DNA from: Candidatus Scalindua japonica
Lineage (GTDB): Bacteria; Planctomycetota; Brocadiia; Brocadiales; Scalinduaceae
Assembly (NCBI RefSeq): GCF_002443295.1
Contig: NZ_BAOS01000029.1
Location: 1-64,000 of the forward strand
Direction of reading: 5' to 3'
Length of the DNA stretch: 64,000 bases
The notes beneath the pieces were generated by a model. The model saw only the letters and a program-made list of their open reading frames with translations. It was not told the origin of the DNA and searched no databases. Shown one piece after another: positions 1-17,672 of the stretch (position 1 is its first letter; the number at the start of each line of letters is the position of its first letter). The position numbers were made by a program, and so were the translations under genes.

Positions 1-98
1 CCATTGAGGGGTACTCATAAGATCATTATGCATTTATCCAGTGGATTGCGCAGTTTTTTCGTAATGTACTGGACAAGATTAACCGGCAATTAAATACA

Positions 99-126
99 TT
101 GAAATTTTCTCTGGATATGTTATAAT
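99..126 (+). promoter_or_regulatory. Transposase promoter, probably giving a leaderless mRNA
   Basis: TTGAAA (99-104) and a perfect TATAAT (121-126) are separated by 16 bases. The transposase ATG begins at 133, only six bases after the -10 box. Transcription would therefore start at or next to the A of the start codon, and no ribosome-binding site is possible. The promoter lies just inside the left inverted repeat, so it moves with the element. Confidence 0.6.
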
Positions 127-132
127 TGCTGC

Positions 133-1167
133 ATGGAAAATATCGATGCACGAAAACTTTCAACAGAAACCCAGCAACAGATACGTAACCAATCAATTCG
201 ACTCAGAAAGTCTGGAAAAACTTACAGAGAAATATCAGAGATTACCGGTATTCATCTAAATACTATTGCCAGATGGTGTAAAGCTTATCAGCGTAAAGGT
301 GCTAAAGCTATTCAAATTAAGAGAAGGGGTAGACGAGTGGGTAACTGCCGAACATTGACCCCGGAGCGAGAAAGAGAAATCCAGAAAATTATTTATGAGA
401 AGTGTCCTGATCAGCTTAAATTTTCTTTTGCATTGTGGACTCGTAAAGCAGTTCAGCAGTTAATCAAACAACTCTGTTGCTTTGATATGCCGGTACGAAC
501 TGTAGGTGAATATTTAAAACGATGGGGTTTTACGCCTCAAAAGCCATTACGCAGAGCTTACAAGCAGAATTCTAAAGCCGTTAATGAATGGCTGGATAAA
601 GAGTATCCTGCAATTGCACAAAAAGCTAAAAAAGAAAAAGCAGAAATCCACTGGGGAGATGAAACGGGACTTTGTAATGACAGTTATCACGGCAGAAGCT
701 ATGCACCACGAGGGCAAACACCCGCGATTCGCCTTCACCCCAGGTGCAAACGGGTGAATTTGATTTCTACAGTTACGAATCAAGGCAAGGTAAGATTTAT
801 GGTATATAAGGATAAAATGAATTCTAGTACTCTTATAAAATTTATGAAACGCCTTATCAAAGATTCAACAAGAAAGATATTTCTGGTTCTTGATAATTTA
901 AAGGTTCATCATAGTCACATTGTAAGGAATTGGCGACAAAAGCATAAAGAGCAAATAGAGGTTTTCTTTTTACCCTCTTACTCCCCGGAGTTAAATCCAG
1001 ATGAGTATTTAAATTGTGATTTAAAAGCAGGTGTACATTCCAAAACGCCTGCAAGAACAAAAGAGCAACTCAAGAATAAGGCAATATCTCATCTGAGAAA
1101 ACTTCAAAAGTCTCCGGGCAGAGTAAGGAAATACTTTAAACATCCAAAAATTGCGTATGCTGCATAG
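133..1167 (+). CDS. IS630 family transposase
   Basis: This 344-residue DDE transposase would catalyse cut-and-paste movement of the surrounding element. The N-terminal third is a helix-turn-helix DNA-binding region of the Tc1/IS630 type (residues about 10-70, containing GKTYREISEITGIHLNTIARW). The catalytic domain shows all three acidic sites: Asp in IHWGDETGLC, Asp in FLVLDNLKVHHS and Glu in SPELNPDEYLN. The frame is intact, and terminal inverted repeats lie about 37 bases before the start codon and 6 bases after the stop codon. The ATG at 133 is favoured because it sits directly behind a strong promoter. Codon use is not strikingly different from the neighbours. Confidence 0.9.
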   Translation: MENIDARKLSTETQQQIRNQSIRLRKSGKTYREISEITGIHLNTIARWCKAYQRKGAKAIQIKRRGRRVGNCRTLTPEREREIQKIIYEKCPDQLKFSFALWTRKAVQQLIKQLCCFDMPVRTVGEYLKRWGFTPQKPLRRAYKQNSKAVNEWLDKEYPAIAQKAKKEKAEIHWGDETGLCNDSYHGRSYAPRGQTPAIRLHPRCKRVNLISTVTNQGKVRFMVYKDKMNSSTLIKFMKRLIKDSTRKIFLVLDNLKVHHSHIVRNWRQKHKEQIEVFFLPSYSPELNPDEYLNCDLKAGVHSKTPARTKEQLKNKAISHLRKLQKSPGRVRKYFKHPKIAYAA

Positions 1168-1193
1168 TCAATCTATTTAATTGCCGGGTTAAT

Positions 1194-1480: not shown

Positions 1481-3061
1481 ATGAATTCTGATATTAAAAA
1501 CAGTTTATTAGTTAATCCTCTTTATACCCCTGTTTCATTTTCCAACCACTACAAAACCTGTAAGATGTTTGGGGCTCGCTATCTAACCCCTCCTCTTGGG
1601 TTAATTACCGTAGCATCATTATTACCTGATAACTGGAATGTGAGACTTATTGATTGTAATGTCAGTTCACTTACTACTGCGGATATCGAATGGTCAGACA
1701 TTGTATTCAGTAGTGGAATGGTGACACAGCAAGATGATCATCTTGCGCTAATTAAACAAGTTAAAGATCTCAATAAGTTTCACGTAATTGGTGGCCCTGA
1801 TCCTACTGCCCGTCCGGATGTATATGAAAACTGCGATTCTTTAGTCCTTGGAGAAGCGGAAGTCAGTCTGCCTTTATTCCTGAAAGATTATTTTTATTCT
1901 ACTCCAGAATCTATTTACAAATCTTCTAACCTACAGGCAGATATGAAGAAGAGCCCCGCACCAAGATTCGATCTTCTAGAATTTGAAAGATACTTGTATT
2001 TGAACATTCAGACTTCAAGAGGCTGTCCTTTTTCATGTGAATATTGCAATATCTCAATGTTAAATGGAGTTGGACATCGGGCAAAAAGTATTAAACAGGT
2101 TTTGTTAGAGCTTCAACAAATATATGATTTGGGATATAGGGGGGTTATGCACGTGGTAGACAGCAATTTTATTGGAAATGAGCAACATGCCAAGGAAATC
2201 CTTTTGGGACTTAAAGATTGGCAGGATGCGAGACGCAGGCCTTACCTGTTTAGTACAGATGTTTCTATAAATCTTGCGGATGATAAGGAATTGCTTATAA
2301 TGATGCGTGAAGCCGGTTTTAATAGCGTAAATATTGGAATAGAAACGCCCAATAGAAAGACATTACTCTCTTCGTACAAAAAGGTTAACGTAAATCGCTC
2401 TATGCCTCAAAATATTCGTGAAATTTATAAAAACGGAATAAGTGTTATACCTTATTACGTTTTAGGATTTGATAATGACGATAAAGATGCTTTTGTAGAG
2501 ATTATGGATTGTATAGAAAAATCAGATACACCTCTTAATTATATAAGACTTTTAGTGGCTATTCCGGAAACAGCTCTTGCCGAGAGACTAAAGAAGGAGG
2601 GACGTCTGCATAAAAATTTTGATGTCTTTCCTGAGAATGGAGATGTTCTGGATTACTTCTTGAACTTTGAAACACTTAGACCAAGGGAAGAGATTCTGGA
2701 AGAGTATATGAGTTTATTTAAAAAAGTGTATAGCCCTGCCAATTTCTTCAGGAGGTTGAGAAATTCAGTGACAATGTTAGGATTTTTTCAGAAGGCCCCC
2801 AGGTTGCCTAAGAAAAAGATGTTCCTTTTTCTCAAAGGAGCTATACAAATGTTTGCTATTTCTGGCATTCTTTCCTCTTACAAGTACGAGTACTGGAAGA
2901 CTCTTTTCTATTGCTCTTTTGTAAACTACAGGGCATTGCCTTATACGATTGGGCTTATAGCGTGTTACCATCAAATAAAATTATTCGAGAGTTTAATGTC
3001 AGAACGATTTAATAATGAAATTTTTCTTTTAAAAAAGGAAATGAAAAGTCTTGCTAATTGA
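1481..3061 (+). CDS. B12-binding radical SAM enzyme, HpnP-like (DUF4070 architecture)
   Basis: The 526-residue protein has a cobalamin-binding-like N-terminal domain (about 5-140), a radical SAM core with the [4Fe-4S] motif C182-x3-C186-x2-C189 in TSRGCPFSCEYCN, and a C-terminal DUF4070-like region. The stretches TPPLGLITVASLLPD, HVIGGPDPTA and VDSNFIGNEQHAKE closely resemble HpnP, the hopanoid C-2 methylase, and its relatives. The family methylates or rearranges unactivated carbons using S-adenosylmethionine and cobalamin. The substrate here is unknown. It heads a same-strand cluster with a carrier protein, a thioesterase and an acyl-AMP ligase, so a lipid or acyl substrate is likely, while hopanoid is only one alternative. 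It starts with ATG and no strong ribosome-binding site is visible. Confidence 0.85.
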   Translation: MNSDIKNSLLVNPLYTPVSFSNHYKTCKMFGARYLTPPLGLITVASLLPDNWNVRLIDCNVSSLTTADIEWSDIVFSSGMVTQQDDHLALIKQVKDLNKFHVIGGPDPTARPDVYENCDSLVLGEAEVSLPLFLKDYFYSTPESIYKSSNLQADMKKSPAPRFDLLEFERYLYLNIQTSRGCPFSCEYCNISMLNGVGHRAKSIKQVLLELQQIYDLGYRGVMHVVDSNFIGNEQHAKEILLGLKDWQDARRRPYLFSTDVSINLADDKELLIMMREAGFNSVNIGIETPNRKTLLSSYKKVNVNRSMPQNIREIYKNGISVIPYYVLGFDNDDKDAFVEIMDCIEKSDTPLNYIRLLVAIPETALAERLKKEGRLHKNFDVFPENGDVLDYFLNFETLRPREEILEEYMSLFKKVYSPANFFRRLRNSVTMLGFFQKAPRLPKKKMFLFLKGAIQMFAISGILSSYKYEYWKTLFYCSFVNYRALPYTIGLIACYHQIKLFESLMSERFNNEIFLLKKEMKSLAN

Positions 3062-3204
3062 CTATTAATAATCAATATCAATGTACAAGGTAAGCGTAAA
3101 ATATTATCATCTCTACAAGCAGGAGAAGCCCGATAGAAAATTTATTATTTACTACTATATACGATCCAACACCCCTGCTTGATAGATGGGCGGCGACAGA
3201 TCAG

Positions 3205-4803
3205 ATGGCATATCGACTCACACGTGGCCAGGGTATTTTTACCCTTCAGGAACATGCCCACTCTTATCCATTACATATTCTTGCACAGAACATAGACAAC
3301 CCTTCGGTTGTTCTTGAATGGCCTAGTTTGGATGGGTTAATAAATGAGTTGAAAAGTGGGAACTATGATTATGTTTGTATTACTTTCATGACCAGGGATT
3401 TAAACAAACTTCGTGAGATGTCTGAGCTTATCAGGGAATATTCTCCAGAATCAAAAATAGTTATAGGTGGTTATGGTGTTGTCTGTATGGTTGACGAAGT
3501 GGAAAAAGAGTTTGAAGATACTTATGATTATATTTGCCGTGAAGAAGGTATCTTGTATATGCGTAACTTGTTAAAAGAAAAAACAGATGCACCTGTCTGT
3601 TGCCGTTTACCGCAGGGAGGCAGCACTATTCCCTGGCTTTCCGCTCGTTCACGAGGAAATATAGGAGCCTTGCTTGCCGGTTTAGGTTGTACAAATCGTT
3701 GCCCTTTCTGTATTACAAGCTTTTATACAAAAGGCAACTATGTCCCGGTAATGAATGTTGATCAACTTTACAAGGGTATGGTTAAGTATTGGGAAACAAA
3801 TCCATTTACGATCTCTGTAAATATATATGGCGAGAATTTTCTGGATTATAAGGAAGACGTTAAAAAGTTGGGACGACTGATTAGGGATGATAATAAATTT
3901 GGTCTCAAGAGGCTCAATTATTTTACTTTTGGTACTGTCAACGCCATCAGCAAATTTGACCCTGAAGAGTTACTATTAAATGGTTTGGATACGGTATGGA
4001 TTGGTGTAGAATCACTCTATGCTAACCTGGAAAAGCTTAATGGATACGATGTGAAAAAAGTGTTTCAAGGCATGAACGAGATTGGAATCAAGACTATTGG
4101 CTCATGGATGTGTGGCCTTGAAACTCAAGATCAAAATAACATAGCAAATGATGAAGATTATCTCATCTCGCTTAATCCATCATTTCAACAAATATCTATC
4201 TTGACAGACGAGACAAGTATGCCCTGGGTAAACAAAAACAATCAAAACAGTGGAAGATCGTATCCCTGGGAAAACTTCCATTTATATGGCAAAACATTTG
4301 AACCAAAAAATTTTTCTTATGAACAGTTACTGGATAGGATTGAAAACGTTTATGACAAGATGTATAAAGTGAATGGGCCCTCAATAATGCGTATGTTGAA
4401 AACTAACATGAACGGTTACAAATTCTGTAAAAAATCCAAACATACACTTTTGAAAAATGACAAAGCTAGTTTTTTTCGACAGAGGGTTAACGCCTATTCG
4501 TCACTATTAAAGGCATGTATGGAATTTGCGCCAAGTGAGCGTGTAAAGAATTTGTTAGCAGAATTGGAGTCTGAAATTGTTGAACACTTTGGGCCTTTTA
4601 CCATTAGGCAAAAAGAGTTTAATGAGCTTATATTACGAAAAGCAGTACGAGAACAGAAGGTGAGAGAAAACGATGAACATTCAATTAAAGCAGATGATTT
4701 TCGCCGTTATGTTTATCCCTCAGGATCAAAAAACCGTTTTAGGAAAAAGCCTTATACGGTTGCCTATCCTGATCTTAAATTAACCGCTCCATCTCTCGTT
4801 TAG
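3205..4803 (+). CDS. B12-type radical SAM enzyme, start codon uncertain
   Basis: This second radical SAM enzyme carries C162-x3-C166-x2-C169 (GCTNRCPFC, numbered from the first ATG) after an N-terminal Rossmann-like domain of the cobalamin-binding type (IVIGGYG near 86-91). Its C-terminal 200 residues are charged and not recognised. The frame stays open and protein-like upstream of the ATG at 3205, back to a stop at 3097-3099, and encodes NLLFTTIYDPTPLLDRWAAT. The mature protein therefore probably starts further upstream. No ATG, GTG or TTG exists there, but AGGAG (3121-3125) lies seven bases before an in-frame ATA at 3133. Its function is unknown; the cluster context suggests action on an acyl-carrier-bound substrate. 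Confidence 0.8.
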   Translation: MAYRLTRGQGIFTLQEHAHSYPLHILAQNIDNPSVVLEWPSLDGLINELKSGNYDYVCITFMTRDLNKLREMSELIREYSPESKIVIGGYGVVCMVDEVEKEFEDTYDYICREEGILYMRNLLKEKTDAPVCCRLPQGGSTIPWLSARSRGNIGALLAGLGCTNRCPFCITSFYTKGNYVPVMNVDQLYKGMVKYWETNPFTISVNIYGENFLDYKEDVKKLGRLIRDDNKFGLKRLNYFTFGTVNAISKFDPEELLLNGLDTVWIGVESLYANLEKLNGYDVKKVFQGMNEIGIKTIGSWMCGLETQDQNNIANDEDYLISLNPSFQQISILTDETSMPWVNKNNQNSGRSYPWENFHLYGKTFEPKNFSYEQLLDRIENVYDKMYKVNGPSIMRMLKTNMNGYKFCKKSKHTLLKNDKASFFRQRVNAYSSLLKACMEFAPSERVKNLLAELESEIVEHFGPFTIRQKEFNELILRKAVREQKVRENDEHSIKADDFRRYVYPSGSKNRFRKKPYTVAYPDLKLTAPSLV

Positions 4804-4875
4804 TGGATAGAGTATGGAAAATTAATATATCATTAAAAGAACAGTTCCAGCCAGTCATTAGAAAGGAAAGCACAT

Positions 4876-5151
4876 TTGGACAAGTCTGAAATATGCGATA
4901 AAATTTACAGGGTATTACGAGAAGTTAATCCAAATCTGGAGCAGTCGAAGATTTCGGAAGAAGCATCTTTTTTTGACTATGACATTGACTCGCTTAAACT
5001 TATAGAGCTAGGCCTGCGAATTGAGTCAGAATTCGATCAAGAGTTAAACCTTGACGACTGGGTAGACTGGGAATCACAAAAGGAAAACAGTGCTTTTTCT
5101 ATTTCTTCTTTCATTGAGTATGTTCAGAATACCGTTGATAGAGAAAAGTAG
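4876..5151 (+). CDS. Acyl carrier protein
   Basis: This small acidic four-helix protein of 91 residues carries the phosphopantetheine attachment motif DYDIDSLKLIELG, with Ser39 as the expected modified serine. After activation by a phosphopantetheinyl transferase, which is not encoded in the window, it would tether an acyl chain as a thioester. It is more divergent than a housekeeping AcpP and stands apart from any fab genes, so a dedicated role in the surrounding cluster is likely. The fatty acyl-AMP ligase downstream is the obvious loading enzyme and the hotdog thioesterase the obvious release enzyme. The start is TTG, preceded by a GGAAAG ribosome-binding site. Confidence 0.88.
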   Translation: MDKSEICDKIYRVLREVNPNLEQSKISEEASFFDYDIDSLKLIELGLRIESEFDQELNLDDWVDWESQKENSAFSISSFIEYVQNTVDREK

Positions 5152-5169
5152 TTTTATGTGTAAAGAAAC

Positions 5170-6165
5170 ATGAATAATATAAGGGTTGTCAGTTCATATC
5201 TTGAAGAACAGAGGAGTGTGGCTTATGCGGATTTTGTCGGTAAGAAATGGATTAAAGGGTTTGTTTCTACCTTAATCAAAAATGGATATAGTTTAAACGA
5301 TTTTGATTTTCAATTTATTGAATTGCCTGACTCTATAAATGATACAGAAACTTTATTTCAAGAATTTGTTAATGATAATGTTCAATTAATTATATGTGCG
5401 GGTAATGATTCTGTTTACCGTCTGGCAGCAATTAATAGAACAATCCCAATGCTATATTTTGGAACACACCCGGAAAATAACGGATTGGAAATTATAGATA
5501 AGCAAAACATTTCGGGTGTCAGATTAAACCTGCCGTTAATATGGAGCTTGAAAAATTTTTCAATATTAAAGAGATTACTCCCTGATTTAGAGGAAATCTA
5601 TATACCAATTTATCTGTTATCGGAGTTTGATACTCCTAACGTCCGGGTAAATCATGAACTCTTTCGCGCCCAAAAGAAAGGTTTTTGGATTCCCGGGCAT
5701 TCAAGCTATATCGGTTATAAAAGCATACATTTCCTGTCAGAAAGTTTAGGCTGTCGATATTACGAATGTCCATATATTACACGGGATGAATTAGAAACAT
5801 GCCTTGGTCAGATCAATCCTGAAAAAACCGCCCTGATTGGGTTTAACGATACTACGTTATTAAAAGGAGGAGTCGATCTGGTTCTAAATAATACGCGTAG
5901 AAATGGGATTCCAGTTTTTTGGGTAAACAATTTTTCAATAGTTAAAGCTGGAGGAGTAGCGGATTTCTCCAGTGATTTTGAAAGAGTGGGAAAACTGATT
6001 GGTTCGATGAGTTTACAATTATTACGTGATAATATCCCAATTGAAAAGATAATGTTTAGAGAAGATCCGGCTGAAAAATTTAGCCTAAACCTGAAAACCT
6101 GTAGGGAGATGTCTATTCACGTTTCTCAGGAAATTTTAGATAGTTTTCATGTGATTGAGGAATAA
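5170..6165 (+). CDS. Signal-less periplasmic-binding-fold protein (ABC_sub_bind-like)
   Basis: The 331-residue protein resembles the ABC_sub_bind (PF04392-like) branch of type I periplasmic-binding proteins. The repeated alpha/beta pattern includes LIICAGNDSVYRLAAINR and IPMLYFGTHPENN, and a second half starts near residue 130. No signal peptide or lipobox is visible at the N-terminus (MNNIRVVSSYLEEQ), and no permease or ATPase is adjacent, so it is unlikely to serve transport. It begins 18 bases after the carrier protein gene and ends 12 bases before the thioesterase gene, which indicates co-transcription. It may bind a cluster intermediate or act as a sensor, but this is inference. The fold assignment is moderately secure and the function is unknown. 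Confidence 0.6.
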   Translation: MNNIRVVSSYLEEQRSVAYADFVGKKWIKGFVSTLIKNGYSLNDFDFQFIELPDSINDTETLFQEFVNDNVQLIICAGNDSVYRLAAINRTIPMLYFGTHPENNGLEIIDKQNISGVRLNLPLIWSLKNFSILKRLLPDLEEIYIPIYLLSEFDTPNVRVNHELFRAQKKGFWIPGHSSYIGYKSIHFLSESLGCRYYECPYITRDELETCLGQINPEKTALIGFNDTTLLKGGVDLVLNNTRRNGIPVFWVNNFSIVKAGGVADFSSDFERVGKLIGSMSLQLLRDNIPIEKIMFREDPAEKFSLNLKTCREMSIHVSQEILDSFHVIEE

Positions 6166-6177
6166 GGATTAAATTGA

Positions 6178-6633
6178 ATGGATACAATGCTGGGCTACCA
6201 CGAAACACCTGTTCGTGTTCAATTCAAAGACATTGACCGATATGGCCAGCTTTGGCATGGCCATGCCGCTTCTTATTTCGAGATTGGACGCGTGGATATT
6301 GTTAGAAAATTTGATTTATCTGTATCTGCCCTATTAAAAGAAAAGGTTATGGCGCCAATAATTGAATTGTCGTGTGAATATAAAAGCCCTGCTTTTGATG
6401 ACGAGTTGCTTATCGTTCAAACAACGTTATTAAAACCCGAGAAACCCTTGCCATACTTAACATTCCATTATCATATTGTAAAAAACGGTAATGATATAAT
6501 ATTAACCGGCAAAACGAAGCAGGTTATTGTACGAAATGATGGACAAATACGTTTTCGTATACCCTCAACAATCCAGGAAAGGCTTGAAAGGATTTGGGAA
6601 TATCTTGCGGAGCAGAAAAGTTGGAAAGAGTGA
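6178..6633 (+). CDS. Hotdog-fold acyl thioesterase (4HBT/YbgC-like)
   Basis: This 151-residue protein has the 4HBT family signature near its N-terminus: VQFKDIDRYGQLWHGHAASYFEIGR is equivalent to the usual D-x-D-x2-G-x3-H-x2-Y-x2-Y-x-E pattern. The catalytic aspartate is expected at Asp18 or Asp20. Such enzymes hydrolyse acyl-CoA or acyl-carrier thioesters in the cytoplasm. Its place between the carrier protein and the acyl-AMP ligase suggests that it releases or proofreads the acyl product. Its last codons overlap the start of the ligase gene, so the two are translationally coupled. Length is normal for the family. Confidence 0.85.
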   Translation: MDTMLGYHETPVRVQFKDIDRYGQLWHGHAASYFEIGRVDIVRKFDLSVSALLKEKVMAPIIELSCEYKSPAFDDELLIVQTTLLKPEKPLPYLTFHYHIVKNGNDIILTGKTKQVIVRNDGQIRFRIPSTIQERLERIWEYLAEQKSWKE

Positions 6634-8264
6634 AGACTGAGAACAAGTTACTCTACCAATTTAATGAGCTTGCCCAGAGTCATCCGGATGACCTTGCGGT
6701 TCGCTTTTACAACTCCTCCACAAACATTCAGGAAGTTACTTATGGGTGGCTATATAGAGAAGCTGCCAGAGTATCAAATACATTGACAAATAAATATAGA
6801 TTGCCTTCCGGGGAGGGAGTAGGAATATTTTTAGAAACATCTCTCAGTGCTATTTCGTCAATCTATGGTATATGGCTTGCGCATGGTGTTATCGTTTCCC
6901 TTCCTCTTCCAACTCGAAAAAATGATTTAGATTATTACCTGTTCAGATTAAGAACAATAATAAACCAGACTAATCTCCGTTTTATTATTGCCGGTAATGT
7001 AAGTGAGCGGATGTTAAGTAAACTGGACGTTAAGGTGACGGTAATTCAAAGTGACCAGATGGTCAAAAAAAACAAAATATTGGTAAATAACAATTATATA
7101 AATAATAGCGATGAAGTATCACTGATTCAATACACTTCAGGAAGTACATCATCTCCAAAGGGCGTCCGGCTTTCCCATAATGCTGTTGCCAATAATGTTG
7201 AAAGTATCAAAGAATGTTTGGACTTAAATAATAAATCAAAAGCATTAGGCTGGTTGCCATTGTCCCATGACATGGGGTTAATAGGAACAGTGTTATTACC
7301 TGTATATTCAAAGTGCGAGGTGACACTTTTCCCCCCAATGAGATTTATCTTGAACCCGAAAATATGGGTGCAGCTTCTTTCTAAATATAAAATTACCGTT
7401 ACCATCGGGCCAAATTTTGCTTACAATTTATGCGCGCGTAAGTTTCCTGAAGAGCTTCTTTCAACGATTGATCTTCGTTCATTGCAACATTGTTTGGTAG
7501 GTTCGGAGCCTGTCAAAAGTAAAACCTTGGAAGATTTTATCCATAAGTTTAAAAAAGCAGGATTAAGGGCCGAGTCATTGAAACCGTGTTATGGGTTAGC
7601 AGAAAATGTTGTTGCCGTGTCAATATTTAAACAAGAGTGTGCTTTTATAGAAGAACCCCACCCAGGCAGTAACGGAAATGGAAACCGAAATCAATTTGTA
7701 TCAATGGGAAAGCCCCTGCAGGGTATCTTAGTGGCAATTATGGATAATTCAGGTAAGCTACTTTCAGATAACCAGCTTGGTGAAATTGCTATTAAGGGCC
7801 ATAGTCTTATGAGTGGATATGTTGGAAAAAACCCTGAATATACATTTACTAAAGACGGCTGGTACCTGACTGGTGATCTTGGATGGAAGATCAACGGACA
7901 ACTCTATATTGCGGGAAGAAAAAGTGATGTAATAATTCGTAGCGGTGTCAATTATTATGCTCATGATATTGAAAACGAGTTAAATGATCTGGAAGGCTTA
8001 CGACAGGGAGGTATTGTCTGTTTTGGTGTAACAGATGATGAGATCGGAACAGAGCGAATAATTATATGGGTTGAAATTCATTTGTCCAGAAAAGCAGGTA
8101 AATATGAGTTAGAAAATGAAATAAACAATCGCGTGTTTAAACGTTTTGGCTTTAAACCAGATAGAATTGAAATTTTCCATAAACGTGTTATACCAAAAAC
8201 ATCCAGTGGGAAAATTAGAAGGTTTCATTGTAAAGATATTTATTTGAAAAACCAACGTACATAG
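6630..8264 (+). CDS. Fatty acyl-AMP ligase (FAAL-type adenylating enzyme)
   Basis: The ANL-superfamily enzyme (about 544 residues) should activate a fatty acid with ATP and pass the acyl-adenylate to the nearby carrier protein. The ATP-binding loop QYTSGSTSSPKG lies at about 167-178. FAAL-style signatures follow: PCYGLAENV, WYLTGDLGW, YIAGRKSDVIIRSGVNYYAHDIE (central and hinge regions) and PKTSSGKIRR near the C-terminus with the catalytic lysine. The GTG at 6630 is chosen because it overlaps the thioesterase stop codon (GTGA) and follows GGAAAGA. A longer reading from ATG 6594 would only retranslate the thioesterase tail. Its identity as FAAL rather than acyl-CoA ligase rests on the PCYGLAE and NYYAHDIE motifs. 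Confidence 0.88.
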   Translation: MKTENKLLYQFNELAQSHPDDLAVRFYNSSTNIQEVTYGWLYREAARVSNTLTNKYRLPSGEGVGIFLETSLSAISSIYGIWLAHGVIVSLPLPTRKNDLDYYLFRLRTIINQTNLRFIIAGNVSERMLSKLDVKVTVIQSDQMVKKNKILVNNNYINNSDEVSLIQYTSGSTSSPKGVRLSHNAVANNVESIKECLDLNNKSKALGWLPLSHDMGLIGTVLLPVYSKCEVTLFPPMRFILNPKIWVQLLSKYKITVTIGPNFAYNLCARKFPEELLSTIDLRSLQHCLVGSEPVKSKTLEDFIHKFKKAGLRAESLKPCYGLAENVVAVSIFKQECAFIEEPHPGSNGNGNRNQFVSMGKPLQGILVAIMDNSGKLLSDNQLGEIAIKGHSLMSGYVGKNPEYTFTKDGWYLTGDLGWKINGQLYIAGRKSDVIIRSGVNYYAHDIENELNDLEGLRQGGIVCFGVTDDEIGTERIIIWVEIHLSRKAGKYELENEINNRVFKRFGFKPDRIEIFHKRVIPKTSSGKIRRFHCKDIYLKNQRT

Positions 8265-8383
8265 ATTTTGTTAAAAAATACCAATTTAGGCGTGTCTGGA
8301 CTCAACATCTGCATAGTTTGTCAACCCGGCAGGTTTTCATACAATGAGATAAGGAGTAAATTTTTCTTCTATACGTAAAATTC

Positions 8384-9730
8384 TTATAAAATTCTGTCAC
8401 TTCCTCCTGAGTAGGGATGCTCTAACGTCATAACTTTTTTTCGTGAATACAGCTGAGAAATAAGGCTAAGCAAAAAAGCATCCACTGGTTTTTTGGAAAT
8501 CGAGACATTGCGGAATATACGAATTGCAATGTTGACAAGTGAAAAATATTTTTCATAACACTTCCAATAGACCAGCCTCAGTTCTTCTGGGCTATACCCA
8601 TTGGGTTCAAAAACAACATTGCTCATATCATACAGTGACCAATCATTGTTCAATATCCTTCCCTCTTTTTCCATTTCAGCGTACGTATCAGTTCCTGGAA
8701 GAGGAGTCAGAATAGAAAAAAGGGCTAGCCCCGCCTTGATTTTATCAAGAAACTCTAAAGTAACCTGGAATTGATCAAGAGGGTCTTCGTCAAAGCCAAT
8801 AATGATAGCAGCCATAGGTACAATTCCAGCCCCTCGGAGTTGTCTGAAAAGTTCTTCATAATCATCAACATTGTTGAAGTCTTTGCGAGCTGATTTCAGG
8901 CTACGACGATTGATAGATTCTATGCCAATATACAATCCCGTACATCCAGCGTGAGCGGCCAATCCTATAAGTTCCGGATTCTTCAAAATTCTTGTGCTAA
9001 CCTGTGAAAGCCATTGAATGTTATAGGGCTTCAGAGCCTTGAATAGCTCCTTACAGTAATCTGGATTGACCGTAATATTATCATCAACAAAAAAGAAAAA
9101 ATTATTTGGAGCAGCTTCAATTTCTGCTAATACATTAGAAATTGGTTTTAACCTGAAAGTTTTTCCAAAATATTTTGTGACGGAGCAGAACTTGCATCCA
9201 TATGGACAACCTCGTGTTGTAAATAGAGGTACTACGGGTTTCCCTCCCTGTCCATAGATTTTCATATTCATGTTGTTCCATTTGGGAATTACCAATGTTT
9301 GTAGGTCTGGTGGGGCAGTATCCTGATATAGTTTCTGAAGCTTACCCATTTCAACATCTTGCAAGATTTTGGCCCATATATTTTCCGCTTCTCCCACAAC
9401 CACAGCATCTGAATGTTGTAAAACTTCCTGTGGAAGTACTGTCGCATGCATTCCTCCAATCATAACCTTAACACCCATCTCTCGAAACGTCTGTGCAATT
9501 TGATAAGCCCTTAAGCTTTGATTAGTAAGAGCGGTAATTGCAACCAAATCATAATTACTTGAAAACGGGATTTCCTCTACCAAATCATTAACTACAGTAA
9601 CTTTGTGCCTGTCCGGCGTTAGACTATTTAAAATAGCCAATGACAAAGGTGGAAATAATGCCCTTTTGTATTTGACAGGCTTATTGTTTTTATCAAGCTT
9701 GGTCGGAAATATCATCAAAATATTCATCAC
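8384..9730 (-). CDS. B12-binding radical SAM protein, DUF4070 type
   Basis: The 448-residue protein has a cobalamin-binding-like N-terminal domain (about 1-130, with IGGMHATVLP and VVGEAE) and a radical SAM core with C175-x3-C179-x2-C182 in TTRGCPYGCKFC. The following FVDDNITVN, YIGIESINRRSLKSARK and ILTPLPGTDTYAEM motifs are typical of the large B12-radical SAM family that acts on lipids and natural products. It lies convergent to the acyl-ligase cluster with 119 bases between the two stop codons, so it is not in the same transcript. The substrate is unknown. The start lies at a pair of ATG codons; the upstream one is used here. Confidence 0.82.
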   Translation of the reverse strand: MMNILMIFPTKLDKNNKPVKYKRALFPPLSLAILNSLTPDRHKVTVVNDLVEEIPFSSNYDLVAITALTNQSLRAYQIAQTFREMGVKVMIGGMHATVLPQEVLQHSDAVVVGEAENIWAKILQDVEMGKLQKLYQDTAPPDLQTLVIPKWNNMNMKIYGQGGKPVVPLFTTRGCPYGCKFCSVTKYFGKTFRLKPISNVLAEIEAAPNNFFFFVDDNITVNPDYCKELFKALKPYNIQWLSQVSTRILKNPELIGLAAHAGCTGLYIGIESINRRSLKSARKDFNNVDDYEELFRQLRGAGIVPMAAIIIGFDEDPLDQFQVTLEFLDKIKAGLALFSILTPLPGTDTYAEMEKEGRILNNDWSLYDMSNVVFEPNGYSPEELRLVYWKCYEKYFSLVNIAIRIFRNVSISKKPVDAFLLSLISQLYSRKKVMTLEHPYSGGSDRIL

Positions 9731-9987
9731 TTAACCATCCTGCCTATATGTTGGTATTTATAAGTTAAAATATAATTGTAGGAGTAATATTTTTTACTAC
9801 TCTTAATTGATTTTTTTTTACAAAAATTTGAATATGGTAGTAGCACAAAAAGAATGCCTAATTTTTACCTTAAAAGCATAGGGGGGCTTTAAACACCTAA
9901 ACAACAAAGAAATAAACAATAGTTAAACCAGTATCGATAGTGAATTGTTATAAATCAATAGCATTTACCGGTAGTAACACCTTTTCA
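9731..9987. other. Intergenic region, no gene seen
   Basis: This AT-rich stretch lies between two minus-strand genes. A small interrupted inverted repeat is present around 9780-9805 (AGTAA followed by TTACT across a T-rich loop). On the minus strand it could contribute to the promoter or leader of the radical SAM gene. I see no recognisable cobalamin riboswitch. Confidence 0.3.
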
Positions 9988-10698
9988 TCACAATAATAAA
10001 GTGCTGAGAAAACCGATAAATGCTCCAAATACTCCTCCCCAGACGACCAGCCAGCCAAGGTGCTGGCGAATCATATCTTCAATAATACTCTTTACATGCT
10101 TTGGTGTCAGTTCGTCCAGCCTGGTATCTACCATATCTCCTATCTTGGACTTGAATGTCTTAAAATCCGTTTCCCGCTGTAGGACTGAAGATATATCAAT
10201 ATTTTGTAATATACCGGATATCCGCTTTTCGAATTCTTTTTTAAACGGGTCTCTCAGAGGTTCAAGAGCTTCTGTCCCTCCAAACATATCCAACATGCCG
10301 CCAAAGGGAGAAGCTTTGACTACCGATATAAAACCATCAAACATCTTGTCAAGGTCTATCTTGCCCATAACCAGATCCGGATCTATCTCATGAGGCAATG
10401 CTTCCTTAGAAACTTTGGCAAAATTCTCTTCCGTAAAAAAATTTTCCATAATTAAAGAACGGATACCTGCCTTAAATTCCTCAAACCTCAATGTGATTAT
10501 GCCGGAACCGTAAAACCCCGGAATCTTTTCAAATAACATATGAACTGCAAGCCAGTTAGTCAGTGCACCTGAAAGCGCGAACAAACCGGATAAAAAAAGT
10601 GCCTGCTTACCGGTAAACTCAGGGCATGCATAAGTACCCCCGCACACGGCAGCGGCTATTAAATTGGTTAATAAACTTTTATTCATCATTGTCCTCAA
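9988..10698 (-). CDS. DUF445 family membrane protein
   Basis: This 236-residue protein has hydrophobic segments at both ends (about 6-50 and 213-235) and a long helical, charged middle. The motif ALTNWLAVHMLFEKIPGFYGSG, followed by a conserved phenylalanine-rich MENFFTEENF region, marks the DUF445 (YheB/YjiN-like) family. The biochemical role of that family is poorly understood, though a membrane-anchored structural role has been proposed. The protein is shorter than full-length DUF445 members, which often exceed 370 residues. It is divergent from maf and stands alone. Several in-frame ATG codons exist at the start (10698, 10689, 10686). Confidence 0.72.
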   Translation of the reverse strand: MRTMMNKSLLTNLIAAAVCGGTYACPEFTGKQALFLSGLFALSGALTNWLAVHMLFEKIPGFYGSGIITLRFEEFKAGIRSLIMENFFTEENFAKVSKEALPHEIDPDLVMGKIDLDKMFDGFISVVKASPFGGMLDMFGGTEALEPLRDPFKKEFEKRISGILQNIDISSVLQRETDFKTFKSKIGDMVDTRLDELTPKHVKSIIEDMIRQHLGWLVVWGGVFGAFIGFLSTLLL

Positions 10699-10908
10699 TT
10701 CATTTTCATAAAATGCAAAGTAAAAGCTTTACAAATATACCGTCTACTTAAAAGGTTGTAAAGATACAAAAACGTGTTTGATCAAATACAAAAAACATCA
10801 TTGCCAGCGCAGTTGTTTGAATATAAAATTACTACTTCTTTACAAGTAAATAGTTTTGTTAAATAACTATAGTCCTGAAGGGGCGAGAAAAACTGAAAAA
10901 ATTGATTT

Positions 10909-11481
10909 ATGAACATGAGAAATATATGTCTTGCATCTTCCTCACCGAGAAGGCAACAAATTTTAAAAGAGATGGGGTTGGATTTTATAGTCTGCTATCC
11001 TGAGAAATATAAAGAAATAATTTGTGGTTTAGATCCGGAGGTACTGGTCTGTCATAATGCTCTTGGTAAAGCAAAAGAAGTAGGAGAAAAGTATAAAGGT
11101 TTAATCATAATCGGTTGTGATACCATAGTGGTATTTAATAATGAAATTTTTGGAAAGCCATTAACTCCTGATAATGCAAATGCAATGCTAACGAAACTGA
11201 GTGGTAATTATCATACGGTTATTTCCGGTTTGGCGGTCATTGATATACAAAAAAACAGAAAATTAGTTGGATACGATAAAACGGAAGTTAAGTTTAAAGA
11301 TGTGTCAGAAAAAGAGATAAATGATTATGTTGCATCAGGTGAGCCTCTGGATAAAGCAGGAGCGTATGGAATACAGGGGTCCGGCGGGGTGTTTGTTAAA
11401 AGTATTAAGGGTTGTTTCTCAAATGTGGTTGGTCTGCCAAAAGAGCTGCTGAAAAAATTTCTTGAGGAACTCACAAATTAA
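10909..11481 (+). CDS. maf: Maf-like nucleoside triphosphate pyrophosphatase
   Basis: The 190-residue protein starts with the diagnostic ICLASSSPRRQQILKEMG loop, followed by GCDTIVVFNNEIFGKP with the catalytic aspartate and by EPLDKAGAYGIQG near the C-terminus. Maf proteins hydrolyse non-canonical or modified nucleoside triphosphates such as dTTP, UTP and m5UTP, and are linked to division arrest in some bacteria. Length matches the family. A second ATG lies two codons downstream. It is expressed divergently from the DUF445 gene. Confidence 0.92.
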   Translation: MNMRNICLASSSPRRQQILKEMGLDFIVCYPEKYKEIICGLDPEVLVCHNALGKAKEVGEKYKGLIIIGCDTIVVFNNEIFGKPLTPDNANAMLTKLSGNYHTVISGLAVIDIQKNRKLVGYDKTEVKFKDVSEKEINDYVASGEPLDKAGAYGIQGSGGVFVKSIKGCFSNVVGLPKELLKKFLEELTN

Positions 11482-11483
11482 GA

Positions 11484-11497
11484 GAGCCTTAAGGCTC
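11484..11497. terminator. Perfect 14-bp palindrome after maf
   Basis: GAGCCTTAAGGCTC begins three bases after the maf stop codon, between convergent genes. It could end transcription from either side. No clear T-run follows, so this is a weak terminator call. Confidence 0.35.
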
Positions 11498-11519
11498 CAA
11501 TTCGAACAAGAGGGTGTCT

Positions 11520-11783
11520 TTAACTGCAAGTAGAAACAGTAATACCGTGTTCTTCCAGAAACACCTTTGTCTTGCTGCAGACGGGGGCTGATGTTTTTAA
11601 GCTTACTTTTGCATCTGTGACATGATGTGTGATTTTGTTTGCCTTTGCCAGTATGCCTTCACTGTCTTTCATGATAATGCGACTTTTACGTTGAATGACA
11701 ATGTCAAACTGATTGATACCTGTCTGTTTTAATTTTGTAGAAGGAGGTAAACCATACAGTTTTGGATCAATAAACTTGTTCAT
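11520..11783 (-). CDS. Small hypothetical protein
   Basis: This 87-residue, lysine-rich, soluble-looking protein has no recognised domain. It has one internal cysteine (APVCSKTK) and a second two residues from the C-terminus (STCS). It lies 64 bases downstream of the antiporter gene on the same strand and could be co-transcribed with it. The frame is intact and the composition protein-like, but no function can be proposed. Confidence 0.5.
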   Translation of the reverse strand: MNKFIDPKLYGLPPSTKLKQTGINQFDIVIQRKSRIIMKDSEGILAKANKITHHVTDAKVSLKTSAPVCSKTKVFLEEHGITVSTCS

Positions 11784-11847
11784 TTTATGAATAATAGAGT
11801 TTTTGAAAAAGTTAAAAAAGAATTACAACTTTAGCTCAATTCAAACT

Positions 11848-12993
11848 CTAGGCACTTTCAAATTTCCTTGACGTTGCCAGTCGTTCAATTGTCAAGCCCT
11901 GCACAAGTATAGAAAATACTACAATAATGTAAGTGATGGTTAATAGCGCTTCTCTTTCCGGTCCAGTTGGAATGGAAAGGGCAAGTGCAACTGAGATGCC
12001 TCCTCGTAAACCTCCCCATGTCATGATTTTTACGGCATCAGGGCTGAAATCCCTTACACGTCGCATGAAGGTGACAGGTATGCCGACACTAATGAAACGC
12101 GCAAACAGCACAACCGGTATCATCGCGAGGCCGGCGATTAAATATCTTTCCTTAATAGTAAGGACTAATACCTCCAGGCCAATTAGCAGAAAAAGGACGG
12201 CATTTAATATTTCGTCCATTAGTTCCCAGAAGGAATCCAGGTGTTTCCTGGTCTCTTCACTCATGGCAAAAAGACGTCCTCTGTTGCCGATAAACATCCC
12301 GGCAACTACCATGGCAATCGGGCCGGAGACGTGAATGGCGCGTGCGAGAGAGTAACCGCCCATGACCAGTGCTAAAGTCAGAAGTACTTCAACCTGATAA
12401 TTGTCTAAACTCTTCAGCATCAGGTAAGTCAGCCAGCCAATGAGGAGTCCGAAAAATATCCCACCTATTGCTTCTTCAATAAACAGGAACATTATGTGTT
12501 CGGCTGTGACGTCATGACCCCCTGCGGCAATACCAGTAATAACCAGAAACACAACAACGGCGACACCATCATTAAAAAGACTTTCACCAGTAATTTTAGT
12601 CTCAAGGCTCTTAGGTACTCCCGCTTTATTAAGAATTCCAATTACAGCTATTGGATCAGTTGGTGCTATAAGACTTCCAAATAACAAGCAGTAAATAAAT
12701 GGTAATTTGATGCCAACTATTAAGAAAACAACCCAGGCAGAACCGCCCACGATTAAAGTGCTAAATATCACACCGAATGTTGCCAGTGTGCTGATGATCC
12801 ATTTGTGTTTGGCCAGGTCGTCTAGATTTACATGTAAGGCCCCGGAGAACAGGAGGAAGCTTAGCATGCCGTGCATCAGGGTTTTGTTGAAATCGATTCC
12901 TTCCAGAGTTACCGTTGCTCTGTTCTGAATGCCTTCAAAGCCACAATGGCCCAGTATTACCAGGCTCACAGAGATAAACATTGCGATCAGCAT
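11848..12993 (-). CDS. CPA1-family Na+/H+ antiporter, N-terminus probably extends upstream
   Basis: This polytopic membrane protein has the CPA1/NhaP hallmarks GSLIAPTDPIAV, ITGESLFNDGVAVVVF and ESLF-type ion-binding Asp residues, plus GGLRGGISVALALS near the C-terminus. It exchanges Na+ or K+ for protons across a membrane. The coordinates use the first ATG, but the frame upstream encodes another 34 residues back to a stop codon at 13096-13098, including LLLSLAAIFSYLNFRF, that match the usual first transmembrane helix of the family. That extension has no ATG, GTG or TTG codon. GGAG (reverse strand of 13099-13102) sits six bases before an ATC and three bases before an ATT. Translation may therefore begin at a non-canonical codon near 13092. 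Confidence 0.88.
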   Translation of the reverse strand: MLIAMFISVSLVILGHCGFEGIQNRATVTLEGIDFNKTLMHGMLSFLLFSGALHVNLDDLAKHKWIISTLATFGVIFSTLIVGGSAWVVFLIVGIKLPFIYCLLFGSLIAPTDPIAVIGILNKAGVPKSLETKITGESLFNDGVAVVVFLVITGIAAGGHDVTAEHIMFLFIEEAIGGIFFGLLIGWLTYLMLKSLDNYQVEVLLTLALVMGGYSLARAIHVSGPIAMVVAGMFIGNRGRLFAMSEETRKHLDSFWELMDEILNAVLFLLIGLEVLVLTIKERYLIAGLAMIPVVLFARFISVGIPVTFMRRVRDFSPDAVKIMTWGGLRGGISVALALSIPTGPEREALLTITYIIVVFSILVQGLTIERLATSRKFESA

Positions 12994-13116
12994 TATCCCG
13001 ATAGTAGTCGGTAACTTGATAAATCGGAAATTTAGATAACTGAAAATCGCTGCCAGGCTTAAGAGCAGGGCGGAAAGATCAAGGATTTCGATAATTTACT
13101 CCATGTTTATTAGATA

Positions 13117-13650
13117 TCACATATTTATTTCTTTTGGCTTAAGCCACATTTCATACATTGGTATAGATATAAATGCAACAAAGCAAATACCGAGAAGAAA
13201 ATATGATGCAATTATGGATATTGAAAACACGTCTGATGTGAATCTTACCAGCAATGGGCCTGAAAGGTTCATTATTATTCCTGTGAAGGCAGTGCCATAA
13301 ATCGTTATTTTTATCCAGTCACGTATCTGTGTCATGGAAAGTATGCGAGACATTACGAATATGATCAGTGGAATTGTAAACGCGTGTACATGAGTTATAT
13401 CCAGGAGTTCTCTATACGATTTAGGGAAGTAAAATCCCTCCTGTAAAAGAGTCTCGTCGTACTCGTAATTTTCTTTATTCTCAGATTCTTCTTCATCACC
13501 ACAGTAATGACGCACGGTGTATCCGGTGGTAAAATTTGTCCTTTCGTGAAAGCCTACACATGAGATGTAAAATGCAAACCCCATGAGTAAAAGGAAAAAA
13601 GTTACAGATAATTTGTTACTCGTTGGAGATTTTGAAAGACCTCTGGCCAT
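13117..13650 (-). CDS. Hypothetical membrane protein with four predicted helices
   Basis: This 177-residue protein has hydrophobic segments near residues 15-33, 88-106, 115-133 and 140-165. Between the first two is an acidic loop rich in Glu and Asn. The segment DITHVHAFTIPLIIFVMSRIL carries two closely spaced histidines at a membrane edge, which could bind heme or a metal, but this is speculative. It lies upstream of the antiporter gene on the same strand with a gap of about 20 bases, so the two are probably co-transcribed. No known family was recognised. Confidence 0.6.
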   Translation of the reverse strand: MARGLSKSPTSNKLSVTFFLLLMGFAFYISCVGFHERTNFTTGYTVRHYCGDEEESENKENYEYDETLLQEGFYFPKSYRELLDITHVHAFTIPLIIFVMSRILSMTQIRDWIKITIYGTAFTGIIMNLSGPLLVRFTSDVFSISIIASYFLLGICFVAFISIPMYEMWLKPKEINM

Positions 13651-13816
13651 TTTTTATAAGATTTTCCTGATTATTTAATACGTTAAATTGCAAAAAATAG
13701 TAATAAGGATTATATACAAATAGCTTACTAAAAAGAAGAATAAAAATATTCAGATATGGGCAGGGTTCTTGTGAGAGTGCCATGGACAAGCTTATTTGAC
13801 CCTGTCTTCAACCGTA

Positions 13817-15436
13817 CTATTCTTTTTTTCTCCTGAACGAAGCGTAGAGATACCTTAATTCTTCTGATTTAAGTAGAAGTGATACGGTAAAAAATGTTAT
13901 GAGCGCAGAAGCTAATGGAATAAGGAGCCGCATGAGTTTTATCATAAGTTTGCCATTACTGTCTGGCATTGCCTTCAGCATTATCCAACATGTGACGTAC
14001 ATCAGAAAGGTTGCAATTAATGTCTTGAAAGCTGATGTGATGATCTGTTTGTGTCCGGTAATATTGAGTTTCTTATGGAGCAGGATAAACATGATTATTA
14101 TCTGAATTGTTGCGCTGATTGCTGTTGCCAGTGCAAGTCCACCTTCATGAAGAAACCAGATTAGAGTTAGATTGAGAACGAGGTTCAGGCTCACCATACT
14201 CGCGCCGACTTTTACCGGTGTTTTTGTGTCCTGAATAGAGTAGAAAGCCCTTATAATTACGTGAGAGGCTGAGTATGCCCATACGCCAATAGAGTAGAAG
14301 AGTATAACTGTAGCGGTTCTAAAGGTTGATTCTGCCGTAAAAGCGTTTCTTTCGTAAAATAACTCAACAAGCGGCCTTCGTAATAATATTAAGCCTGCAG
14401 ATGCTGGTATTCCAATAAATAATACAACCCTTACCGCCTGATTAAATGTGTTGGTGAAATTTGTCCAATCTTTTCGGGCGGCATATGTAGAAAAGAACGG
14501 AAATACTGCAGTTGCCATTGCAATTCCAAAGACGCCCAGGGGAAATTGAATCAACCTGTCACCATAATATAACACTGACGCAGCGCCTGTTTCCAGCGGA
14601 TATGGTATTGTCATTCCCGCAAAAGAGAAACTCTCATTACCTCCAGGATGTTTCGCAAATGCAATTGCAATAAAACTGTCCATGAGTACATTGATCTGGA
14701 CAACTGCCAGGCCGAATATAATGGGAAGCATCAGTGCCATGATACGTTTGAGGCCTGGATGTGAAAAGCTGAATGAAGGTTTGAAAGTTATTCCCTCTTT
14801 TTTTAAAACAGGTATCTGCATTGCCAATTGGACCATACCTCCGATGAGAATTGCTGCCGCAAGCCCAAAAATCTTTTTCTCCAATGTATTTCCGAAAATG
14901 GGAGTAAGTAAGAATACCCCCATTATCCAGCAGATGTTCAGCATGACAGGAGCAAGAGCAGGCGTAAGGAAGTGTTTGAGCGAATTCAGGACTGCCATTG
15001 CAAGCGCAACCATACAAATAAAAAGTACGTATGGGAAGGTTATAAGCAGCAGATTTAATACTAAATCCCATTTGTGATTCAGGGATACGACTGAGGGTAC
15101 AACGGAGAATGATATCTCTGCCAGTACAACCAGGCTTCCAAGGATTATAAACAGCAATGTTCCTGTTATATTTACTAGTTCCCATGCATCTTTTCTGTCT
15201 TTGGTTTCAAGATATTCTGTAAATACGGGAATAAAGGCGGCACTCAATGCACCTTCACCAAAAAGCCGCCTGAAGAGATTCGGTATCTTGAAGGCCACTA
15301 CAAAGGCGTCCCAGGCCAGACTGGTGCCGAAATAGCTTGCGCATATTATGTCTCGTGCCAGTCCCAATGCCCTACTCATCAGTGTGCATAGGCTGACTGT
15401 CTTCGCAGATTTTAGGAAACTTTCTTTTTTTTGCAT
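13817..15436 (-). CDS. murJ: Lipid II flippase MurJ
   Basis: The 539-residue protein has about 14 transmembrane segments and the MurJ/MviN opening pattern: SRALGLARDIICASYFGTS, DAFVVAFKIPNLFRRLFGEGALSAAFIPVF. It would flip lipid-linked peptidoglycan precursors across the membrane. Its presence supports some form of peptidoglycan synthesis, consistent with reports of cell-wall material in planctomycetes and anammox bacteria. It starts 10 bases after the thiE stop codon on the same strand, so the two form an operon. Confidence 0.95.
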   Translation of the reverse strand: MQKKESFLKSAKTVSLCTLMSRALGLARDIICASYFGTSLAWDAFVVAFKIPNLFRRLFGEGALSAAFIPVFTEYLETKDRKDAWELVNITGTLLFIILGSLVVLAEISFSVVPSVVSLNHKWDLVLNLLLITFPYVLFICMVALAMAVLNSLKHFLTPALAPVMLNICWIMGVFLLTPIFGNTLEKKIFGLAAAILIGGMVQLAMQIPVLKKEGITFKPSFSFSHPGLKRIMALMLPIIFGLAVVQINVLMDSFIAIAFAKHPGGNESFSFAGMTIPYPLETGAASVLYYGDRLIQFPLGVFGIAMATAVFPFFSTYAARKDWTNFTNTFNQAVRVVLFIGIPASAGLILLRRPLVELFYERNAFTAESTFRTATVILFYSIGVWAYSASHVIIRAFYSIQDTKTPVKVGASMVSLNLVLNLTLIWFLHEGGLALATAISATIQIIIMFILLHKKLNITGHKQIITSAFKTLIATFLMYVTCWIMLKAMPDSNGKLMIKLMRLLIPLASALITFFTVSLLLKSEELRYLYASFRRKKE

Positions 15437-15446
15437 AGCATATAAA

Positions 15447-16091
15447 TTAACTCTCTTCAGTTGTTAATTTATTATTAAATTGCTTTGTAGTTGAAAGGAT
15501 ATCTTGTGCACATATAATTGCAGAACAAATTGCTACTCTTGGTGCTCCGGCTTTTAGTACTTCATTGAGGTTCTCCAGGGTTATGGCACCTATGGCAATA
15601 ATTGGGATATTTACTGCTCCCGAGATTTTTGGAATAGCGTCAATTCCTATTGATGGTTCATACTCTTTTGTCTTAGTTGGATAGATCGGGCCAATTGCAA
15701 TATAATCTGCGCCATCTTTTTGTGCTTGCATTGCTTGTATAATGCTATGTGTAGATACTCCGATAATTTTTTCATGGCCAATAATGTCTCGTGCTTCTGA
15801 GACACTCATATCCTGTTGGCCTAAATGAACACCATCTGCATCAATTTCCCTGGCAACATGTACGCGGTCATTGATAATCAATAAAGTCCCGCTTTTAGCA
15901 GTGATTTCACGTACTTCTCGGGCAAGAGATATGAAATCACTATCAGATACTATCTTTTCACGCAATTGAATGGCATCCGCTCCACCATCTATGACAAGTC
16001 TTACAGTTTCTTTAATCGGTTTTGCCGCAATATTACTGCTTATTAATACATATAGCCTGGTTTTGTGAAGAAAGTCTCTCTTTGTAGTCAT
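15447..16091 (-). CDS. thiE: Thiamine phosphate synthase
   Basis: This 214-residue TIM-barrel enzyme couples hydroxymethylpyrimidine diphosphate with thiazole phosphate to make thiamine phosphate. Family motifs are DAIQLREKIVSD, LIINDRVHVAREIDADGVHLGQQDM, IGVSTHS, DYIAIGPIYPTKTK and a C-terminal glycine-rich phosphate-binding region (IPIIAIGAITLENL). Length is typical. No other thiamine gene is nearby. It is the first gene of the thiE-murJ transcript and reads divergently from purF. Confidence 0.94.
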   Translation of the reverse strand: MTTKRDFLHKTRLYVLISSNIAAKPIKETVRLVIDGGADAIQLREKIVSDSDFISLAREVREITAKSGTLLIINDRVHVAREIDADGVHLGQQDMSVSEARDIIGHEKIIGVSTHSIIQAMQAQKDGADYIAIGPIYPTKTKEYEPSIGIDAIPKISGAVNIPIIAIGAITLENLNEVLKAGAPRVAICSAIICAQDILSTTKQFNNKLTTEES

Positions 16092-17670: not shown

Positions 17671-17672
17671 AA

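Follow-up and report, generated by a model that had tools for sequence, protein, structure and literature searches.

A probable acyl-carrier tailoring cassette with cobalamin-type radical SAM enzymes in Candidatus Scalindua japonica, with a four-gene core shared by a marine myxobacterium

What chemistry is served by a group of genes that encodes two cobalamin (B12)-type radical S-adenosylmethionine (SAM) enzymes together with proteins that load, carry and release an acyl chain? Such a group lies at 1481-8264 of a 64,000-nucleotide stretch of Candidatus Scalindua japonica (RefSeq assembly GCF_002443295.1, contig NZ_BAOS01000029.1, positions 1 to 64,000; this whole stretch is referred to below as the window). 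By open reading frame coordinates and Pfam and NCBIfam profiles it comprises six closely packed plus-strand genes: rSAM1 (1481-3061), an HpnP-like cobalamin-type radical SAM enzyme; rSAM2 (3133-4803; Radical_SAM profile), the core cobalamin-type radical SAM enzyme; an acyl carrier protein (ACP; 4876-5151; PP-binding); a two-lobed binding-fold protein (5170-6165); a hotdog thioesterase of 4HBT/YbgC type (6178-6633); and an AMP-binding adenylating enzyme of the fatty-acyl-AMP ligase (FAAL) type (6630-8264). A first-pass annotation made from the sequence alone had named these six families and proposed a dedicated acyl-carrier tailoring cluster, perhaps one for membrane lipids such as ladderanes; all six are present at these places, with the starts of rSAM2 and FAAL revised. 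We consider it fairly probable that the locus is a self-contained, horizontally acquired acyl-carrier tailoring cassette, in which FAAL loads, B12-radical SAM chemistry alters and the thioesterase releases.

The proposal of a dedicated cluster is borne out by a second instance in the marine myxobacterium Paraliomyxa miuraensis (Myxococcota), where rSAM2, ACP, binding protein and thioesterase occur in the identical order. On one strand of that locus (L065), a FAAL gene (8114-9949) is followed by rSAM2 (9992-11800), ACP (11797-12126), the binding protein (12149-13159), the thioesterase (13149-13655) and an acyl-CoA-oxidase-like gene (13659-15539); beyond the oxidase lie a desaturase on the opposite strand and a second FAAL, FAAL2 (16531-18453). 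Identity between window and Paraliomyxa proteins is 55% for rSAM2, 36% for ACP, 39% for the binding protein and 38% for the thioesterase. A chance neighbourhood is ruled out by this four-gene synteny, and the shared block is not one of frequent genes meeting by chance, because no further relative of the binding protein turned up in the sets searched (676 genomes, of which 392 were planctomycetes and 284 myxobacteria, Paraliomyxa aside, together with plasmids and viral contigs). The two loci have a core of rSAM2, ACP, binding protein and thioesterase in common, accompanied by a neighbouring FAAL; rSAM1 in the window and the oxidase and desaturase in Paraliomyxa look like clade-specific additions. 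No further cassettes were found in viral contigs or plasmids, and radical SAM enzymes go unmentioned in the paper on the Paraliomyxa genome.

In a tree of 42 rSAM2 proteins, the window and Paraliomyxa sequences are sisters (100/100), followed by a sequence from a Nitrospirae metagenome-assembled genome and then by Wallbacteria; the rSAM2 of Anammoxibacter falls elsewhere, on a long branch whose placement is unsure. The four-gene order is the same in both phyla and the sequence relationships run across the species tree; this speaks for the transfer of a working unit, and the cassette was probably acquired horizontally.

How, then, is the cassette distributed among the relatives of its host? The source genome carries hydrazine synthase alpha, in agreement with the earlier supposition that this is an anammox bacterium. 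Of 62 Brocadiales genomes, two have rSAM2, namely the source genome and Anammoxibacter (at 36%), which belongs to the same order and a different family; all 12 same-genus genomes lack it, and the complete cassette is present in 1 of the 62. The right flank of the locus (DUF445-like and Maf genes) is kept in five same-genus genomes, most of which also have the NhaP-like gene and further genes, with proteins at 87-92% identity in conserved order. DNA similarity to these five genomes begins exactly at 9987, where the genus-wide syntenic block starts with the minus-strand DUF445-like gene (9987-10698), and the cassette insert, of which this gene marks the right border, is absent from them, so that everything from the contig start up to 9987, a third radical SAM gene (rSAM3) among it, is an accessory insert. 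The cassette is accessory and mobile-looking, and is not an anammox core trait. The first-pass annotation had looked to conserved gene order in other Brocadiales as the check on the cluster: there is none among these relatives, whereas the unrelated myxobacterium has it, and the myxobacterial synteny shows the cluster to be real, and probably a horizontal acquisition, despite its absence from relatives. On the side of the break the DUF445-like gene has different neighbours in each of the five same-genus genomes (G004, G007, G008, G009 and G012; loci L170-L173 and L176), which marks a variable insertion site.

This distribution bears on the possibility that the two radical SAM enzymes form the cyclobutane rings of ladderanes on ACP-bound chains for anammox membranes. 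The host is an anammox bacterium, radical SAM enzymes have been proposed for ladderanes (PMC2649909), and the best NCBIfam match of rSAM1 is the ladderane-associated TIGR04072, at 70 bits. That score is far under the family cut-off of 360, and a better match (234 bits) lies elsewhere in the source genome, on contig C5, in a gene cut by the contig end and beside a chalcone-synthase-like gene. To our knowledge ladderanes are general to anammox bacteria, against which stand the two genomes with rSAM2 and the single one with the binding protein; relatives without the cassette make normal ladderanes, as is known of anammox bacteria, and the identical core is found in a myxobacterium, an organism not expected to make ladderanes. 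The Kuenenia ladderane candidates are type II fatty acid synthesis (FASII) clusters with ketosynthases (PMC2649909). The cassette has in common with them the anammox background and radical SAM genes near fatty-acid-type genes, but theirs hold ketosynthases and other FASII genes, whereas it lacks such genes and is missing from almost every anammox genome. On its distribution and on the better ladderane-type radical SAM gene elsewhere in the genome we rejected a ladderane role, which we regard as extremely improbable, and the earlier suggestion of a general membrane-lipid role is likewise not supported. The accompanying statement that no ketosynthase, reductase or glycosyltransferase is present is correct for the sequence seen only, since the contig start truncates the upstream side.

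Which acid would be loaded, and onto what? Against solved structures the ligase scores 203-204 bits with the FAAL structures 7r7e, 3pbk and 3kxw and 85 bits with the best CoA ligase, 5ie0; against the NCBIfam FAAL model PRK09192 it scores 337 bits, under the cut-off of 600. Core motifs of FAALs are W.P..HD.GL and Y-G-x-A-E, the latter replacing Y-G-x-T-E, and the window protein carries WLPLSHDMGL and CYGLAEN, with YGLAE also in both Paraliomyxa FAALs. By these sequence comparisons the ligase groups with FAALs, well apart from CoA ligases, as had been annotated. The ACP matches Pfam PP-binding at 33.8 bits (cut-off 20.8) and has the DSL motif with the phosphopantetheine serine, Ser39; DSLKL and a C-terminal FS motif are conserved between the window and Paraliomyxa ACPs. 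The thioesterase matches 4HBT_2 at 29.2 bits (cut-off 25.5) and 4HBT at 26.6 bits (cut-off 20.6), and its nearest solved structure is 6fdg, a 4-hydroxybenzoyl-CoA thioesterase, at 55 bits.

The closeness of the thioesterase to 4-hydroxybenzoyl-CoA/MenI-type hotdog enzymes fits an acid that is aryl or short and branched instead of fatty, in which case the released product would be an aromatic (alkylated) or branched acid with a signalling or antibiotic function, by analogy with CysS acting on carrier-linked aminobenzoate; the CysS substrate is an aromatic pantetheinyl compound. The grouping of the ligase with fatty-acyl-AMP ligases argues otherwise, and the acyl-CoA-oxidase-like gene and nearby desaturase in Paraliomyxa suit aliphatic chains, so we judge such a substrate unlikely.

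The binding-fold protein matches PF04392 at 36.4 bits (cut-off 25.9), and both of its lobes align with 3lft. It has in common with the substrate-binding proteins of ATP-binding cassette (ABC) transporters (PF04392, TrpX type; ABC_sub_bind) a two-lobed binding fold, as far as sequence indicates, and differs from them in its fixed position between ACP and thioesterase and in the lack of an export signal and of transporter genes. A hydrophobic N-terminus or export signal is absent from both the window protein, which had already been called signal-less, and its Paraliomyxa ortholog, and neither cassette contains transporter genes. A structure model of this protein built from two sequences reached a predicted local distance difference test (pLDDT) score of 44 and was unusable.

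The step that would alter the chain falls to the radical SAM enzymes. Both carry CxxxCxxC, at residues 182-189 of rSAM1 and 186-193 of rSAM2, and the three cluster cysteines of rSAM2 are invariant in 42 homologues. The Pfam B12-binding profile is matched by rSAM1 at 36.0 bits (cut-off 32.1) and by rSAM2 at 30.7 bits, slightly below the cut-off; an N-terminal B12-binding Rossmann fold is present in the rSAM2 structure model (pLDDT 88). The nearest structures to this model are TsrM, AprD4 and MgmA at the top, and also CysS and TokK. Neither rSAM2 nor its Paraliomyxa counterpart matches any curated NCBIfam radical SAM family over cut-off. CysS carries out radical methylation on a pantetheinylated aminobenzoate substrate (PMC12846815), which gives such chemistry on a carrier-type arm a precedent, and both CysS and TokK methylate unactivated carbon on pantetheinylated substrates (PMC12846815). 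The rSAM2 model shares their fold class, whereas the identity of rSAM2 in the structural alignments is about 12%, and it adjoins FAAL and ACP genes, not a nonribosomal peptide synthetase or carbapenem cluster.

The characterised relative of rSAM1 is HpnP, a hopanoid C-2 methylase. The name HpnP-like given to rSAM1 by the first-pass annotation holds at the level of domain architecture only, its Pfam B12-binding, Radical_SAM and DUF4070 domains being those of HpnP and HpnP-like proteins (PMC10697835); no function is assigned to HpnP-like proteins in the literature (PMC10697835). In contrast to HpnP, rSAM1 has acyl-carrier genes and not hopanoid genes as neighbours, and no HpnP model is among the NCBIfam matches. 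Relatives of rSAM1 at 33-38% occur in nearly all Brocadiales genomes sampled. Its closest homologue (42% identity) is in Anammoxibacter, beside a 2,504-residue FAAL-ACP-condensation-adenylation gene and neighbouring a PapA-like acyltransferase and a methyltransferase, which links the rSAM1 branch to FAAL-fed chemistry again. The Anammoxibacter locus (L164, 6682-19361), with its FAAL-ACP-C-A-T-KASIII-like megasynthase, PapA-like acyltransferase, methyltransferase and rSAM1 homologue, is a natural-product cluster.

Taken together, these families suggest a pathway in which the six proteins would act in sequence. FAAL would adenylate a carboxylic acid in its free form, most likely a fatty acid, before loading it onto Ser39 of ACP; rSAM2, joined here by rSAM1, would attack unactivated carbons of the ACP-tethered chain, with C-methylation the most likely outcome and cyclisation or other reactions possible; and the hotdog thioesterase would free the altered acid. 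The binding-fold protein, cytosolic and signal-less, would bind substrate, product or effector inside the cell.

Several observations weigh against this account. The core is known from two instances only, and the FAALs of the window and Paraliomyxa are 28 and 30% identical and placed differently, so that FAAL may have been recruited separately in the two clusters; a search of the Paraliomyxa genome at 1e-25 returned no match to rSAM1. The FAAL-specific insertion region of the window ligase aligns with 7r7e and is about 11 residues shorter, so that it appears shortened. No phosphopantetheinyl transferase accompanies the cassette, whose upstream side is cut off, since the first base of the window is the first base of the contig. 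AprD4 is a diol dehydratase, and the resemblance of the rSAM2 model to it may leave room for a reaction other than methylation. The wider family of rSAM2 (one scan gave 157 loci, in many phyla) also bears on the question: when the neighbourhoods of about 100 loci were clustered, neighbours were mostly clade-specific and ACP, FAAL and thioesterase were not recurrent beside most family members, so relatives of rSAM2 need not use carrier-bound chains.

The scarcity of carrier genes across that family is also in keeping with a different arrangement, in which rSAM1 and rSAM2 act on a free lipid (for example a hopanoid) or a peptide, and FAAL, ACP and thioesterase supply an acyl group that is joined to the product. 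HpnP acts on hopanoids, and an rSAM1/rSAM2 pair in Anammoxibacter sits among condensation-like, epimerase and sulfotransferase genes. Against this, it is rSAM2, not rSAM1, that is directly tied to ACP and thioesterase in both phyla, and acyltransferase or condensation genes occur in neither cassette; we hold this arrangement to be quite unlikely.

Some members of the wider family have distinctive surroundings. The family is large and uncharacterised, with members in Elusimicrobiota, Verrucomicrobiota, Planctomycetota, Myxococcota, Nitrospinota and others (loci L065-L144). In Anammoxibacter OFTM214 (L013, 8506-19146), four condensation-like acyltransferase genes in tandem and an alpha/beta hydrolase gene come after the rSAM1/rSAM2-like pair, which also lies near sulfotransferase, epimerase and glycosyltransferase genes, another unusual cluster. 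Myxobacterial rSAM2 homologues (L102, 7761-11782; L116; L084) adjoin an alpha/beta hydrolase related to that of the Anammoxibacter cluster, with a nitroreductase farther upstream.

The layout of the window genes fits a single operon, given the short gaps (about 72 bases on either side of rSAM2, 18 between ACP and the binding protein, and 12 between the binding protein and the thioesterase) and the four bases (GTGA) shared by the thioesterase stop and the FAAL start. The FAAL start is most likely GTG at about 6630 and not TTG at 6594, and ACP has a TTG start. For rSAM2 the start is very likely ATA at 3133 instead of ATG at 3205, because AGGAG, a good Shine-Dalgarno sequence, lies directly upstream and the 24 extra residues align with homologue N-termini ('LLFTTIYDP...DRWAATDQM' in the window, 'ILFTTIYDP...DRWAATDQM' in Paraliomyxa); in the structure model this extension provides the first strand of the B12 domain. 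ATA is a rare start codon, and the plain alternative is an assembly error of ATG to ATA. A promoter and terminator scan gave signals no more frequent than in shuffles.

Two further elements flank the six genes. At the contig start an IS630 element (78-1193, plus strand; transposase at 133-1167, terminal inverted repeats at 78-102 and 1168-1193) adjoins the cassette, its transposase matching NCBIfam transpos_IS630 at 221 bits (cut-off 100). Downstream, convergent to the cassette and left of the synteny break, rSAM3 (8384-9730, minus strand) encodes a BchE-like B12/radical SAM protein with 105 bits to TIGR02026; it lies inside the same accessory stretch, and its membership of the pathway is unproven. 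With 83 radical SAM matches in the source genome, a group of two or three such genes is in itself no surprise.

Is there a known system of this kind? In jamABC and the polyyne clusters (protegencin, caryoynencin) a FAAL likewise loads a free acid onto a stand-alone ACP and the chain is changed on the carrier, and the polyyne clusters add a thioesterase (PMC8406139). Those systems use fatty-acid desaturases with rubredoxin, whereas B12-type radical SAM enzymes take that place here; none of the six window genes is a fatty-acid desaturase, the one near the Paraliomyxa cassette being on the opposite strand, and the binding-fold protein is not named among the polyyne core genes. We found no paper that pairs radical SAM enzymes with FAAL in a related sense, an absence that is weak evidence. 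Tentatively, and with more doubt than belief, we put forward a bolder version: that this is an undescribed cassette in which a new B12-radical SAM family methylates or cyclises a fatty chain at unactivated carbons on a stand-alone ACP, with the binding-fold protein a dedicated acyl or product binder, that it has been exchanged between marine myxobacteria and anammox planctomycetes, which are anaerobic, and that it makes a novel lipid natural product.

If the acyl-carrier tailoring account is true, the cassette would be a radical-SAM counterpart to the desaturase-based FAAL-ACP cassettes and a compact, few-gene route to altering a tethered acyl chain at its unactivated carbons. With a second copy in a cultured and sequenced myxobacterium, the product can be sought without growing the anammox bacterium. 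For the uncharacterised wider rSAM2 family, the cassette offers a first substrate hypothesis.

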